A stretch of DNA of 64,000 nt from Caulobacter zeae (GTDB lineage: Bacteria; Pseudomonadota; Alphaproteobacteria; Caulobacterales; Caulobacteraceae): assembly GCF_002858925.1 (NCBI RefSeq), contig NZ_PJRS01000004.1, positions 35,355 to 99,354 of the forward strand. Reading direction: 5' to 3'. Below, in pieces: positions 38,697 through 63,466 of the stretch. Below the pieces are notes generated by a model. It had not been told where the DNA came from. It was given only the letters and a program-made list of their open reading frames with translations, and did not search any database. Numbering within the stretch: position 1 is the first letter of the stretch; each line of letters opens with the position of its first letter. The translations under genes were made by a program, and so were the position numbers.

Positions 38697-40031
38697 CTAC
38701 TCCGCGGCCGCCAGGGCGCCGGCGTAGCGATTGACCGGGAAGTCCAGCCCCAGGTTCTCGCGGAAGGTCGAGCCCTCGTAGTCGGTGCGGAACAGCCCCC
38801 TGCCTTGCAGGATCGGCACGACCAGATCGACGAAGGCCTCCAGCTGGCCCGGCAGGCTTTCGAACAGCACGAAGCCGTCGGCGCCGCGCGCCTCGAACCA
38901 GGCCTGCAAGCTGTCGGCGACGGCTTCCGGCGCGCCGACGAAATGGCCGCGCGGGGTGGCGAAGCGCAGGGCCGTCTCGCGCAGGGTCAGGTTCTCGGCC
39001 TTCACGGCGGCGACGATGCGGTTGACCGAGCTCTGGTTGGAATTGGCCCCGAACGCGGCGGCCTCAAACGGGAAAGGACCATCGGGGTCGTGCTGGGAGA
39101 AGTCGTACTCGTTGAACGGCCGGGCCAGCATCGACAGCGCGTTGTCGAGCGACACGAGCTCGGTCAGTTCCTTGTAGAGCGCCTCGGCCTCCTGCGCCGT
39201 CTTGCCCACGACCGGACGGGCGGCGGGCAGCACCTGGAGTTGGTCGGGATCGCGACCGAAGGCGGCGGCGCGGGCCTTGATGTCCTTGTAGTAGGCCTGG
39301 GCGGCGTCGAGATCCTCGTGCGAGACGAAGATGGCGTCGGCGCGGCTGGCGGCGAAGGCCTTCCCGTCCTCGGAAGCGCCGGCCTGGAAGATCACCGGCT
39401 GGCCCTGCGGCGAGCGGCTGATGTTCAGCGGGCCCTTCACCGAGAAGAACTCGCCCTTGTGGTTCAGGGCGTGCAGCTTGGCCGGATCGAAGAACTGGCC
39501 GCCCTTCTTGTCGAAGGTCAGGGCGTCGTCCTCCCAGCTGTCCCAAAGCCCCTGGACGACGTCGAGATATTCGCCGGCCAGGCGGTAGCGGACGTCGTGG
39601 GCGTAGTGCTTTTCACGACTGTAGTTGGCCGCGCTGCCTTCCAGCCACGAGGTGACGACGTTCCAGCCAGCCCGGCCGCCGCTGATGTGGTCGAGCGACG
39701 AGAACTGGCGGGCGACGTTGAACGGCTCGCTGTAGCTGACCGTCAGGGTGCCCACGAGGCCGATGTTGCTGGTGGCCCCGGCCAGGGCCGACAGGATGGT
39801 CAGCGGCTCGAAGCGGTTGAGGTAGTGGGGGCTCGACTTCTCGGTGATGTAGACGCTGTCGGCGACGAACAGGAAGTCGAACTTGCCGGCCTCGGCGACC
39901 TGGGCCTGGCGCTTGTAGAACGAGAAGTCCGTGCTGGCGCTCGGCTGGGCGTCGCGATGGCGCCAGTCGCCCCAGCCGGGGCCGACCCCGTGCAGGATGA
40001 AGCCGAGCTTGAGTTGACGGGGCTGGGACAT
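38697..40031 (-). CDS. FMN-dependent monooxygenase, NtaA/SnaA/DszA family (luciferase-like)
   Basis: A 444-residue luciferase-like flavin monooxygenase. Family blocks include LKLGFILHGVGPGWGDWRH, FDFLFVADSVY, FEPLTILSALAGATSNIGLV, DHISGGRAGWNVVTSW, YDFSQHDPDGPF and VGAPEAVADSLQAWF. Members such as NtaA, DszA and SfnG oxidise nitrilotriacetate, sulfones and related compounds using reduced FMN from a partner reductase; one is encoded at 62963. The start at 40031 is the first ATG giving the family N terminus. It lies 86 bases after the TauD-like gene on the same strand, pointing to desulfurisation of an organosulfur compound. Confidence 0.9.
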   Translation of the reverse strand: MSQPRQLKLGFILHGVGPGWGDWRHRDAQPSASTDFSFYKRQAQVAEAGKFDFLFVADSVYITEKSSPHYLNRFEPLTILSALAGATSNIGLVGTLTVSYSEPFNVARQFSSLDHISGGRAGWNVVTSWLEGSAANYSREKHYAHDVRYRLAGEYLDVVQGLWDSWEDDALTFDKKGGQFFDPAKLHALNHKGEFFSVKGPLNISRSPQGQPVIFQAGASEDGKAFAASRADAIFVSHEDLDAAQAYYKDIKARAAAFGRDPDQLQVLPAARPVVGKTAQEAEALYKELTELVSLDNALSMLARPFNEYDFSQHDPDGPFPFEAAAFGANSNQSSVNRIVAAVKAENLTLRETALRFATPRGHFVGAPEAVADSLQAWFEARGADGFVLFESLPGQLEAFVDLVVPILQGRGLFRTDYEGSTFRENLGLDFPVNRYAGALAAAE

Positions 40032-40117
40032 CGGGCCGTTCCGTTGGCTGAAAATGACGGAATCCTGCTTACGCAGCCCCTTCCCCGCGATCCAACGAGA
40101 TGCTCTCAAGCCCCTGA

Positions 40118-41014
40118 TCAGGCACGGAAATAAGGCGCGTCGCCCTTGATCGTCACGCGCTCGACCACGCGCTCCACCGGCCAGTAGTCGAGCACGGCGT
40201 AGTGCTGGGTGGCGCGGTTGTCCCAGAAGACGATGGCGTTCGGGGTCCAGCGGAAGCGGACCTGGTATTCGGGCGACTTCACCCGGTCGAGCAGCTCGGC
40301 AAGCAAGGCGGCGGCCTCGTCCTCGGGCAAGCCGAGGATCCGCGTCGTGAAGACCTTGTTGACGAAGAGATGCGGCTGGCCGGTCTCGGGATGGGTGCGC
40401 ACCACGGGGTGGGCCTGGGGCGGATAGGCCGCGCGCAGTTCCTGCCGCTTGGCCTCGTCGATGCGGTTGCCATAGCTTTGCAGGATATCGTGCTCGGCCG
40501 AAAGGCCCGCCAGTTTGTCCTTCAGCGGTTGCGGCAGGTCGGCGTAGATGGCGGCGGTGTCGGCGAACAGGGTGTCGCCGCCCGACGGCGGCAGGGTGCG
40601 GGCGCGCAGGACCCCGCCCATCGACGGCGCGGGCCGGAAGGTGACGTCGGTGTGCCACTTGTTGGCGGCCCGCACGATCGGGACGATGGCCTCGCGCAGC
40701 TTCATGCCGTCGGCGGCCTCGATGTGCAGGATCTCGGGATAGCCCGGCACGTGGGCTGTGACCGGATGACCTTCCAGGTCGCCGAAATAGCGGCCGAAGC
40801 GAACATGGTCCTCGTGGCTGATGTCCTGGTCGCGGAAGAACACGACCTTGTGGCGCAGCAGGGCCGCGCGGACGGCCGCGACGATCTCGGGTTCGAGCGG
40901 CTGCGTCAGGTCGAGCCCGGAGATCTCGGCGCCCAACACAGGGCCGGCGGGCGTGACCGTCAGGCCGGCATAGTCAGGCGCGTCGCCCGCTGAGATCGGG
41001 GTCAAGGCGTTCAT
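40118..41014 (-). CDS. TauD/TfdA-family Fe(II)/2-oxoglutarate dioxygenase (copy 1)
   Basis: A 298-residue oxygenase of the taurine-dioxygenase family, which hydroxylates the carbon next to sulfonate or sulfate so that sulfite or sulfate leaves. The iron triad is His121 and Asp123 in KWHTDVTF and His271 in TQHYAVLDYW; the 2-oxoglutarate-binding arginine lies further on in VERVTI. LGAEISGLDLTQPL and KVVFFRDQDIS are typical N-terminal blocks. The start at 41014 has GGGAGGA upstream. A second TauD-like gene lies at 47576; the two share the fold but differ in sequence, so substrates may differ (taurine, alkyl sulfates or sulfonates). Confidence 0.92.
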   Translation of the reverse strand: MNALTPISAGDAPDYAGLTVTPAGPVLGAEISGLDLTQPLEPEIVAAVRAALLRHKVVFFRDQDISHEDHVRFGRYFGDLEGHPVTAHVPGYPEILHIEAADGMKLREAIVPIVRAANKWHTDVTFRPAPSMGGVLRARTLPPSGGDTLFADTAAIYADLPQPLKDKLAGLSAEHDILQSYGNRIDEAKRQELRAAYPPQAHPVVRTHPETGQPHLFVNKVFTTRILGLPEDEAAALLAELLDRVKSPEYQVRFRWTPNAIVFWDNRATQHYAVLDYWPVERVVERVTIKGDAPYFRA

Positions 41015-62958: not shown

Positions 62959-62962
62959 CGCC

Positions 62963-63466
62963 ATGGCGCCGTACGACGCCGGCGCTCCGGTCGCGCAGCC
63001 GGAGACGGACTTTCGCGACGTGCTGGCCCACCTGGCGAGCGGCGTCGCCATCGTCGCCTGCTGGGACGGCGACGCCCCGCGGGGCCTGCTGGTCAGCTCG
63101 ATCACCGGCCTTTCGGTCGCCCCGCCCCGCTTCCTGTTCTGCGTGCGCAAGGAGGCGGGGTGCCACGACGCGCTGCTCGCGCGCCCCGACCTGTCGGTGG
63201 CGCTGCTGGGCGCTGCCGACGAGGAGGAAGCCCTTCGCTTCGCCTCGGGGTCGCGGGCCCACGAGCGGTTCGATCCCAGCCGCTGGCGGCTGCATCGCCA
63301 GGCCCCGCCGGTGTTCGCCGGCGGCGTGGCGCGAGCCGTGTGCCGCGTGGACGCCGTGGTCGACGCCGGCAGCCACTCGATCTTCATCGTCGAGGCCGAA
63401 CGAGTCGGGTTCTCGCCGGGGCCGGCGCTGGTGGCATGGAACCGGGGGCTGACGGCGGTGGGGTGA
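62963..63466 (+). CDS. Flavin reductase domain protein
   Basis: A 167-residue flavin reductase of the FMN-binding split-barrel type (LASGVAIVACWDGDAPRGLL, VSSITGLSVAPPRFLFCVRK, HERFDPSRWRLH). It likely supplies reduced FMN to the SsuD-like enzyme and perhaps to the NtaA-type enzyme at 38697. It is unrelated in fold to E. coli SsuE. It ends the operon; a palindromic repeat follows within 15 bases. Confidence 0.9.
   Translation: MAPYDAGAPVAQPETDFRDVLAHLASGVAIVACWDGDAPRGLLVSSITGLSVAPPRFLFCVRKEAGCHDALLARPDLSVALLGAADEEEALRFASGSRAHERFDPSRWRLHRQAPPVFAGGVARAVCRVDAVVDAGSHSIFIVEAERVGFSPGPALVAWNRGLTAVG

Follow-up and report, generated by a model that had tools for sequence, protein, structure and literature searches.

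A probable island for organic sulfur use in Caulobacter zeae with two TonB-dependent receptors and few cysteines and methionines

Why would one bacterial locus join two TonB-dependent receptors to a large set of putative sulfur enzymes, and does it serve one unusual substrate or many? The question is raised by positions 38697-63466 of a 64,000-nucleotide stretch of Caulobacter zeae contig NZ_PJRS01000004.1 (the window). Organic sulfur can exceed 95% of the sulfur in aerobic soils, according to the part of PMC3596284 available to us. We describe here the gene set, its modular recurrence and the marked scarcity of cysteine and methionine in most island proteins, all directly observed, and propose, with a probability of about 0.78, that the island is a sulfur-starvation toolkit through which organic sulfur is taken up and its sulfur released when sulfate is scarce. 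To our knowledge, the outer-membrane step of organic sulfur uptake has been little studied.

Gene content and predicted sulfur routes

Gene calls and family scans place 22 genes in the region, which they fill exactly, instead of the twenty counted in the initial annotation; the two arms with the kinds of gene it named were confirmed, and the redoxin, the FAD/NAD(P) protein, the LysR regulator and the flavin reductase are additions to its list.

38697..40031, minus: LLM1, FMNH2-dependent monooxygenase, NtaA/DmoA family (TIGR03860, 543.6 against a cut-off of 279.7)
40118..41014, minus: TauD-1, Fe(II)/2-oxoglutarate sulfonate-type dioxygenase (PF02668)
41258..41935, minus: RDX, AhpC/TSA redoxin with CPAC motif (PF00578)
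41932..42318, minus: FDX, ferredoxin with two 4-cysteine motifs (Fer4; eight motif cysteines read directly)
42315..43907, minus: FAD, flavoprotein of the FrdA/L-aspartate oxidase/PAPS reductase/AprA fold, in a branch without a curated name
43907..44845, minus: SBP1, SsuA-type lipoprotein binding protein (TIGR01728, 218.1, over the cut-off of 163.5)
44858..47473, minus: TBDR1, TonB-dependent receptor (PF00593 and PF07715)
47576..48445, minus: TauD-2, Fe(II)/2-oxoglutarate sulfonate-type dioxygenase (PF02668)
48697..50058, plus: NB9, FAD/NAD(P)-binding protein (PF13454)
50055..50891, minus: LysR-type regulator (PF00126, PF03466)
50937..50954, plus: conserved upstream box AGGATAAGTCTATTGATC, between LysR and permease
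51031..51840, plus: SsuC-like permease (PF00528)
51837..52670, plus: SsuB-like ATPase (PF00005; NF008420, 233.5 against 395)
52667..53842, plus: ACAD-fold flavoprotein, predicted MsuC/SfnB-like S-oxygenase (PF02770/PF02771)
53839..54789, plus: 2-hydroxyacid dehydrogenase (PF02826)
54808..55650, plus: ALD, class II aldolase/adducin family protein (NF004855, 406.8, over the cut-off of 255)
55650..56663, plus: SBP2, SsuA-like lipoprotein binding protein (TIGR01728, 130.3, under the cut-off of 163.5)
56796..58979, plus: TBDR2, TonB-dependent receptor (PF00593, PF07715)
58984..59598, plus: CDO (3MDO), predicted thiol dioxygenase of the 3-mercaptopropionate dioxygenase type
59595..61175, plus: RHOD, four rhodanese domains (PF00581, four stretches), single catalytic-type cysteine C190
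61185..61832, plus: GST, glutathione S-transferase (PF02798)
61864..62958, plus: LLM2, SsuD-like two-component sulfonate monooxygenase
62963..63466, plus: flavin reductase (PF01613)

The minus-strand set runs from LLM1 to TauD-2, with LysR on the same strand, and the plus-strand set from NB9 to the flavin reductase. Several of the encoded enzymes are predicted to free the sulfur in the form of sulfite or thiol, from which cysteine would be made.

SBP1 and SBP2, whose lipoboxes LSAC and LAAC were read directly, are the two best SsuA matches of the genome (the next best reaches 43.7 bits), and the permease is its best match to NF008470 (256.1 against 347). We predict that the two pairs of TonB receptor and lipoprotein deliver organic sulfur compounds to a single SsuBC-type importer. 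Both annotated receptors are present, although with 115 TBDR barrel matches in the genome, about one per 47 kb, their adjacency alone says little. TBDR2, in a search that scored 14 candidates per genome, adjoins 3MDO in 23 of the 25 genus genomes where it was found; its relatives in a protein search carry general receptor names and no ligand. LysR is predicted to control the island via the box at 50937-50954, which shows few changes across 11 aligned Caulobacter sequences (window included). This box matches once in the genome at up to three mismatches, so that no regulon could be drawn and one operator shared by all arms was rejected; a relaxed ATAAG-type pattern was dropped at 11 window matches against 6.3 expected.

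On the minus arm, the TauD-type pair, scoring 290.9 (TauD-1, closest solved TauD 3pvj) and 225.8 (TauD-2) below the NF007104 cut-off of 313, may cut other sulfonates or sulfate esters. LLM1 is closest to YtnJ of B. subtilis (1yw1), which we take to be CmoJ, with 54.7% identity over 428 columns in a full-length match, and would cut the C-S bond of a thioether or sulfoxide like the CmoJ/YtnJ group. The redoxin, which accompanies FAD-ferredoxin in 27 of 30 loci (inside the 10 kb flanks, median gap 415 bases), might reduce the sulfenic acid left by LLM1, as CmoJ gives a sulfenic acid, which is reduced in a following step (PMC10863075).

On the plus arm, the dioxygenase is nearer to solved 3-mercaptopropionate dioxygenases (3uss/4tlf, 1e-83; 4wvz, 2e-82; 3uss deposited under that name) than to chains named cysteine dioxygenase type 1 (E 2e-5 at best), which argues for membership of the 3MDO type. 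Its four top chains include 6xb9 and 4qma, both deposited as cysteine dioxygenase type I, the former of which is presumably a 3MDO despite its deposited name. This enzyme would oxidise a thiol to a sulfinate, the MsuC-like ACAD-fold enzyme would turn the sulfinate into a sulfonate, and LLM2, provided with FMNH2 by the flavin reductase, would cut the sulfonate to sulfite and an aldehyde. MsuC is described as an ACAD-fold enzyme forming an S-O bond and SsuD as cutting C-S (accessible part of PMC8234197). The annotated "DszC/SfnB-like" character of the ACAD-fold protein holds at superfamily level only (SfnB, TIGR04022, 95.7 against 430.9; DszC, NF043015, 40.1 against 850); its gene adjoins an SsuD-like gene in loci L024, L038 and L040. 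LLM2 reaches 248.8 against the SsuD cut-off of 518.2 (TIGR03565), and its closest solved structure is the alkanesulfonate monooxygenase 7jv3 (E 2e-62). Since several enzymes (TauD, SsuD, SfnB) miss curated cut-offs, their substrates are not fixed. The rhodanese has the four domains annotated but one cysteine in the whole protein, and since this sits in the CAGRTR loop, three domains are without one. The loop is identical in all 37 copies examined (32 distinct, five places having been read twice, and one being the window's own), and CDO and RHOD are adjacent in 29 of 29 loci; RHOD may handle sulfane sulfur.

Cysteine and methionine content

Cysteine and methionine together amount to 0.94% in the island proteins against 2.54% in 303 control genes, and none of 5000 random 22-gene sets was as low; 30 genes from the left part of the window have 2.44%. 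Without receptors and binding proteins, the remaining 18 genes stand at 1.20%, again unmatched by 5000 random sets (controls of at least 200 aa). The difference also appears among paralogues of the same genome: 0.26 and 0.32% in the island LLMs against 1.51-6.91% in five of the six other LLM genes (one LLM paralogue outside the island likewise has 0.00%), 0.79 and 0.41% in the TauDs against 2.61 and 4.63% in the two others, and, among 436 control frames, 0.42% in the ATPase against 1.81-3.21% in five paralogues and 0.55% in the GST against 1.58-2.34% in three. FAD (3.55%) and FDX (6.42%) are sulfur-rich within the sulfur-poor island, the flavin reductase (2.82%) and LysR (2.11%) show no depletion either, and ALD (1.68%) and the permease (1.31%) are only mildly depleted.

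TBDRs are low as a class (mean 0.95%, sd 0.44, n=20, lowest 0.16), and TBDR1 (0.40%) and TBDR2 (0.16%) are low yet within its range; sulfur depletion was therefore rejected as proof for the receptors. For the same reason TBDR0, at 33619-36393 and with 0.25%, was kept out of the island.

In other genomes, relatives at 40-80% identity (best match per locus) have a median of 0.00% for both LLM1 (range 0.00-0.54, 17 loci of Alpha- and Gammaproteobacteria) and SBP1 (0.00-0.75, 21 loci of Alpha-, Beta- and Gammaproteobacteria), and weaker LLM1 matches in loci L017-L019 reach 1.1-1.6%. Proteins low in sulfur are described from sulfate-starved Rhodococcus and from the desulfonation genes of Gordonia in the accessible parts of PMC8557817 and PMC7661421. 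Measured against controls from its own genome, the island carries in this depletion the mark of a sulfur-starvation protein set.

The flavoprotein-ferredoxin pair

The FAD-ferredoxin pair is the island's most interesting piece. FDX lies by FAD in 30 of 30 loci, with a median gap of 30 bases, and within the FrdA/L-aspartate oxidase/PAPS reductase/AprA fold the pair forms, judged from its sequence, a widespread branch with relatives in many other bacteria. FAD stays below the curated cut-off of each of 25 models (among the matches listed, of 45). The annotated "AprA/AprB-like" label stands at the level of the superfamily only and was rejected as a name, at 45.2 against 557 for AprA (NF005331) and 25.1 against 135.65 for AprB (TIGR02060), with the aligned residues also speaking against it. 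L-aspartate oxidase was likewise rejected (TIGR00551, 73 against 452.75; dicarboxylate-binding residues not aligned), and the succinate dehydrogenase/fumarate reductase model TIGR01812 gives 86.4 against 567.3. In a profile alignment, Y220, E314 and S354 of FAD align with H232, H355 and R390 of FrdA, which we take to be its dicarboxylate-binding His, His and Arg, and the fumarate-binding residues are absent; the placing of E314 at the second position hinges on a 3-residue gap. E314 and S354 are invariant and Y220 nearly so in 33 aligned rows. Fold comparison cannot choose between AprA/AprB and L-aspartate oxidase because both belong to the same superfamily. The names L-aspartate oxidase and succinate dehydrogenase, given to relatives of the pair in some sources, are most likely wrong for this family.

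The pair may either donate electrons to a sulfur-organic intermediate of the LLM1 branch or accept them from it, and a first guess at its reaction, by analogy with PAPS reductase, would be a reduction. More tentatively, it might form a new class of ferredoxin-coupled flavoenzymes acting on organic sulfur in aerobic bacteria, the missing electron partner of YtnJ/DmoA-type monooxygenases, which breaks a C-S bond or reduces a sulfoxide or sulfinate; we regard this as possible though doubtful. A need for its conserved methionines and cysteines would then explain why it stays sulfur-rich in a purged operon. Judged by titles and the opening lines of abstracts, no paper on the pair in sulfur assimilation appeared among the matches listed, subscription literature being thinly covered. 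An 836-aa SBP-FAD fusion (P0042) was left unused; it may be a one-base indel at the 1-base gene overlap.

Known systems, separable arms and alternative readings

That known systems are far simpler, as first annotated, was overstated, since the Pseudomonas cluster atsACBR-sftR-atsK-sftP and plasmid pTomTYG65a of Sphingobium sp. TomTYG65 combine similar parts. The former, in the available part of its description (PMC3596284), has in common with the island a TonB receptor, a sulfonate-type binding protein, an ABC transporter core, a TauD-like enzyme (AtsK) and a LysR regulator. It has one receptor and one binding protein where the island has two each, and an arylsulfatase, whereas Pfam gave no sulfatase family among the island's 22 genes; no 3MDO, rhodanese, LLM, redoxin or FAD-ferredoxin is among its seven genes named there. 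At about 286-316 kb, pTomTYG65a carries nearly the same gene set (TBDRs, LLM-FAD-ferredoxin, LLM-peroxiredoxin, TauD, SBPs, SsuD-like, TST, 3MDO, SsuB, SsuC, LysR), but adds an arylsulfatase and differs in gene order. Its TBDRs, LLMs, SBPs, TauD, 3MDO and SsuB have 0.00-0.68% cysteine plus methionine, and no such scarcity is seen in FAD (2.23%), arylsulfatase (2.20%), permease (2.03%) or LysR (1.57%).

In Pseudomonas, a 3-mercaptopropionate dioxygenase gene is followed by one of the thiosulfate-sulfurtransferase type (3mdo-tst, PA2602-PA2603; accessible part of PMC12947264), an order that matches the island's dioxygenase-rhodanese pair. Nine such loci have an SsuD-like neighbour in six cases and no TonB receptor match within 1.5 kb on each side. 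A point against the toolkit reading comes from a paper on sulfur starvation in P. aeruginosa, which in its accessible part names cys, ssu and msu genes, and whose main text lacks the string PA2602 (PMC12581299). The island is like ssuEADCB, tauABCD and msu in its SsuA/B/C-type transport, TauD-/SsuD-type desulfonation and MsuC-like ACAD fold (PMC3596284 and PMC8234197, as far as accessible). In the S-alkyl cysteine salvage of B. subtilis (CmoJ/YtnJ), the C-S cut calls for a reduction afterwards, and the island has a redoxin nearby; the acetyltransferase and deacetylase of that pathway are absent from the 22 genes (Pfam) and the transporter differs. We know of no outer-membrane receptor, thiol dioxygenase, YtnJ-like enzyme or FAD-ferredoxin pair in the ssuEADCB, tauABCD or msu systems.

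Within the genus, CDO occurs in 22 of 22 genomes with FAD and 6 of 53 without it (Fisher 7e-14, kinship ignored), and TBDR2 in 21 of 22 and 4 of 53 (kinship likewise ignored); restricted to the 60 genomes with completeness of 90% or more and contamination of no more than 5%, the counts for CDO are 21 of 21 and 3 of 39. The two arms are co-inherited in the genus, even where far apart. The conserved co-occurrence in other genomes on which the initial annotation had staked its view of an organosulfur acquisition and breakdown region was thus found, and it supports that view together with the sulfur-sparing composition.

The further claim, which derived from the enzyme set a single substrate bearing several carbon-sulfur bonds, fared differently. 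A dedicated pathway for one natural compound with several C-S bonds or sulfur oxidation states, imported by both receptors, would agree with the arms lying within 17 kb of each other in 15 of 22 genus genomes and together in other lineages (L025, L026, L027, L028), but we consider it unlikely. The arms are 120, 290 and 636 kb apart on one contig in three genus genomes, and in nine Pseudomonas genomes 3MDO-rhodanese is away from the FAD part (on other contigs in eight, at 774 kb in one). In the plasmid stretches read from Pararhizobium and Paracoccus, FAD-ferredoxin is accompanied by a transporter and an LLM enzyme, and 3MDO and the four-domain rhodanese found no match there. Gene content varies as well, the 3MDO gene in L008 and L011 directly following the ATPase, with no ACAD, SBP2 or TBDR2 between them. 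Because the arms are separable in other genomes, the evidence lends no support to one substrate with several C-S bonds, and we read the parts as modules of a toolkit.

A carbon- or energy-gaining sulfonate catabolic island is, in our judgement, very unlikely: the aldolase and the 2-hydroxyacid dehydrogenase could process a carbon skeleton, but the loss of cysteine and methionine would have no evident reason in sulfur-replete growth, and Pfam assigned none of the 22 island genes to a family of sulfite dehydrogenases or sulfite exporters. Detoxification of electrophile-modified thiols, with GST, redoxin, YtnJ-like enzyme and thiol dioxygenase salvaging cysteine from alkylated thiols, draws on the identity of LLM1 to YtnJ and on the salvage of S-alkyl cysteine by CmoJ-type enzymes (PMC10863075). 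It seems highly improbable for the whole island and would fit better as one component of the toolkit than as its rival: Pfam gave neither the acetyltransferase nor the deacetylase of that pathway among the 22 genes, and the two SsuA-type binding proteins and two TauD enzymes point to outside sulfonates.

As a separate observation, the place of 3MDO and rhodanese is taken in the Paracoccus plasmid stretch by a cupin gene and a small rhodanese-like gene.

The island offers two TonB receptors with testable ligands, one of them strongly tied genetically to a thiol dioxygenase, a predicted three-step line from thiol to sulfite that can be assayed enzyme by enzyme, and a widespread flavoprotein-ferredoxin family. 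Cysteine and methionine content separates its LLM, TauD, ATPase and GST from the compared paralogues of this genome, bar one, and could therefore flag other sulfur-starvation genes.

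Gene content and genomic setting of the island

The island occupies exactly positions 38697–63466, as first described, but gene calls give 22 genes there and not 20. Every kind of gene that the initial annotation had named for the region was confirmed by family scans, while the names AprA/AprB and DszC/SfnB held at the superfamily level only and not as specific names. The island is real and conserved. The reading that fits best is a sulfur-starvation toolkit built of modules, a new form of the sulfonate and sulfate-ester scavenging clusters already known. A single substrate for the whole enzyme set, as originally proposed, is unlikely.

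The host genome (completeness 100% by tool estimate) contains four TauD-family and eight luciferase-family monooxygenase (LLM) genes, two of each in the island, which also holds its two best SsuA-type binding proteins (SBP) and its best SsuC-type permease. TonB-receptor barrel matches number 115 genome-wide. The minus-arm flavoprotein of the FrdA/L-aspartate oxidase/PAPS reductase/AprA fold (FAD protein) is 94% identical to its counterpart in Caulobacter radicis, and the host genome is closest to Caulobacter; C. radicis and C. endophyticus are examples of species with the island. M86, M214, M229, M233 and C330 are conserved Met and Cys residues of the FAD protein.

Type II secretion genes (GspF, GspE, GspD) are found at 28400–37835 of the window, and three further genes lie before the island:

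33619–36393, TonB receptor, 0.25% Cys+Met
36348–37835, lipoprotein-like gene, no match in Pfam or NCBIfam
38097–38693, 198-aa gene, no match in Pfam or NCBIfam, resembling a mobilisation protein by eye only

The order of the first two is preserved in two loci from elsewhere (L004 and L005), where the 198-aa gene is also kept beside the island at 85–88%. Intergenic repeat-like inverted sequences occur near gene ends at 41090–41257 and 63467–63600, e.g. CCCCCTTCAGGGGG.

Co-inheritance of the two arms

Among 75 genomes of the genus, 22 carry the FAD gene. The thiol dioxygenase of the plus arm (3-mercaptopropionate dioxygenase type, 3MDO) is present in 22/22 of these vs 6/53 of the others, and the second TonB-dependent receptor (TBDR2; 14 candidates scored per genome) in 21/22 vs 4/53; Fisher tests on these counts overstate the association because they take genomes as independent. 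Restricted to the 60 genomes with completeness of 90% or more and contamination of 5% or less, the counts for the dioxygenase are 21/21 vs 3/39. FAD gene and dioxygenase lie at most 17 kb apart in 15 of the 22 genomes, 120–636 kb apart on the same contig in three and on different contigs in four, and of the 25 genomes where TBDR2 was found, 23 have it beside the dioxygenase. Co-presence and distances across the genus thus indicate that the arms travel together even without adjacency.

Thirty FAD-gene loci were retrieved from named genomes with six exact peptide patterns, a search by which near relatives dominate: 14 Caulobacter, one Phenylobacterium, one Asticcacaulis, nine Pseudomonas, Amantichitinum and Andreprevotia (betaproteobacteria), and three other alphaproteobacterial assemblies (Xanthobacteraceae, Caulobacteraceae and one unplaced). 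A ferredoxin gene adjoins the FAD gene in all 30. Within flanks of at most 10 kb, many ending early at contig ends, we found a redoxin in 27 loci, a TonB receptor (≥35% identity) in 27 and a relative of the first luciferase-type monooxygenase (LLM1, ≥48%) in 17. The dioxygenase is present in 29 of the 30 genomes, one lacking it, and a rhodanese gene adjoins it in all 29; it lies 4–16 kb from the FAD gene in 14 genomes, 774 kb away on the same contig in one and on a separate contig in 14. As a baseline, such a dioxygenase occurs at E 1e-40 in 6 of 142 evenly drawn genomes of the class (own genome included), whose taxa differ from those of the 30 loci, and the five other dioxygenase genomes had no rhodanese match within 1.5 kb.

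Sulfur-poor composition

After dropping the first 15% of every protein, Cys+Met amounts to 0.94% in the 22 island proteins vs 2.54% in 303 control genes of the same genome (20 stretches of 20 kb at round coordinates on 11 contigs; control frames were picked by a GC-by-codon-position rule, island genes by hand), and to 2.44% in 30 genes of the window's left half. None of 5000 random 22-gene sets was as low. The same holds for Met alone (0.56 vs 1.88; 0/5000), and Cys alone is 0.37 vs 0.66 (40/5000). Receptors are a weak case for depletion since 20 other TonB-dependent receptors average 0.95%, down to 0.16%; excluding receptors and binding proteins, the remaining 18 island proteins have 1.20% (0/5000, controls ≥200 aa). 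The island LLM, TauD, ATPase and GST proteins are low against family-matched controls with one exception, an NtaA/DmoA-family LLM gene outside the island with 0.00% Cys+Met, and LysR did not differ from its family controls (2.11 vs 1.54 and 3.44). The exceptional gene (L116:12109-13452 = G000:C28:109109-110452, minus strand) neighbours an SDR and a hydrolase-like gene and, far from the island, is perhaps a candidate sulfur-starvation gene.

In other genomes (40–80% identity, best match per locus), median Cys+Met is 0.00% for LLM1 (17 loci), the first binding protein (21) and TBDR2 (8), and 0.60% for the dioxygenase (34, some places counted twice; range 0.00–5.85). The medians are 3.18% for the FAD protein (29) and 7.78% for ferredoxin (28); the permease (2.14%, 8) and the FAD/NAD(P) protein (1.99%, 4) do not share the low values. 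Passages of PMC8557817 and PMC7661421 describe the production of low-sulfur proteins under sulfur starvation in other bacteria, both citing a P. putida study.

On pKN1 of Sphingobium yanoikuyae, L039:17188-23520 encodes a putative sulfate exporter, serine O-acetyltransferase EpsC, membrane dipeptidase, SBP and TauD with 0.00–0.46% Cys+Met, and a thioredoxin-family gene with 3.18%, a plasmid-borne set of low-sulfur versions of cysteine-synthesis genes.

Plasmid relatives and proposed chemistry

Nearly the whole island set, already annotated, is found on a Sphingobium plasmid. Plasmids of Pararhizobium gei and Paracoccus yeei carry a compact LLM-SBP-permease-ATPase-FAD-ferredoxin form, preceded by an ACAD-LLM-SBP-permease-ATPase block and followed in P. 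yeei by genes for a cupin and a small rhodanese-like protein. The gene order FAD-ferredoxin-SBP-ATPase-permease-amidohydrolase-FAD/NAD(P) protein is seen on an Azospirillum plasmid, about 33 kb from a dioxygenase-rhodanese-SBP-TauD group. Copper-type genes stand within the organosulfur blocks of the Pararhizobium (YcnI and CopD, L038:5624-7764) and Paracoccus (CopC, L040:4774-5955) plasmids. One protein-search match (P0042, 836 aa) joins SBP and FAD parts in a single chain, possibly a real fusion or an indel.

In the plus arm, 3MDO would produce a sulfinate, which the ACAD-fold protein may oxidize to a sulfonate for cleavage by the SsuD-like LLM2. MsuC, of the same fold, makes an S–O bond (PMC8234197). 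Starting from 3-mercaptopropionate, and with the flavin reductase present, the predicted products are 3-sulfinopropionate, 3-sulfopropionate and finally sulfite plus malonate semialdehyde. ACAD-LLM2 pairs also occur in L024, L038 and L040, and an SsuD-like gene neighbours the dioxygenase in six of nine Pseudomonas loci (1.5 kb read). In the minus arm, LLM1 is 54.7% identical to YtnJ, presumably the same enzyme as CmoJ. CmoJ cuts a sulfoxide to leave a sulfenic acid that needs reduction (PMC10863075). For a cut of this type the redoxin is the candidate reductant. The LysR-permease spacer contains a conserved box, kept across 11 aligned Caulobacter sequences and occurring once in the host genome. 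The most interesting question of the island is the reaction carried out by the FAD-ferredoxin pair.
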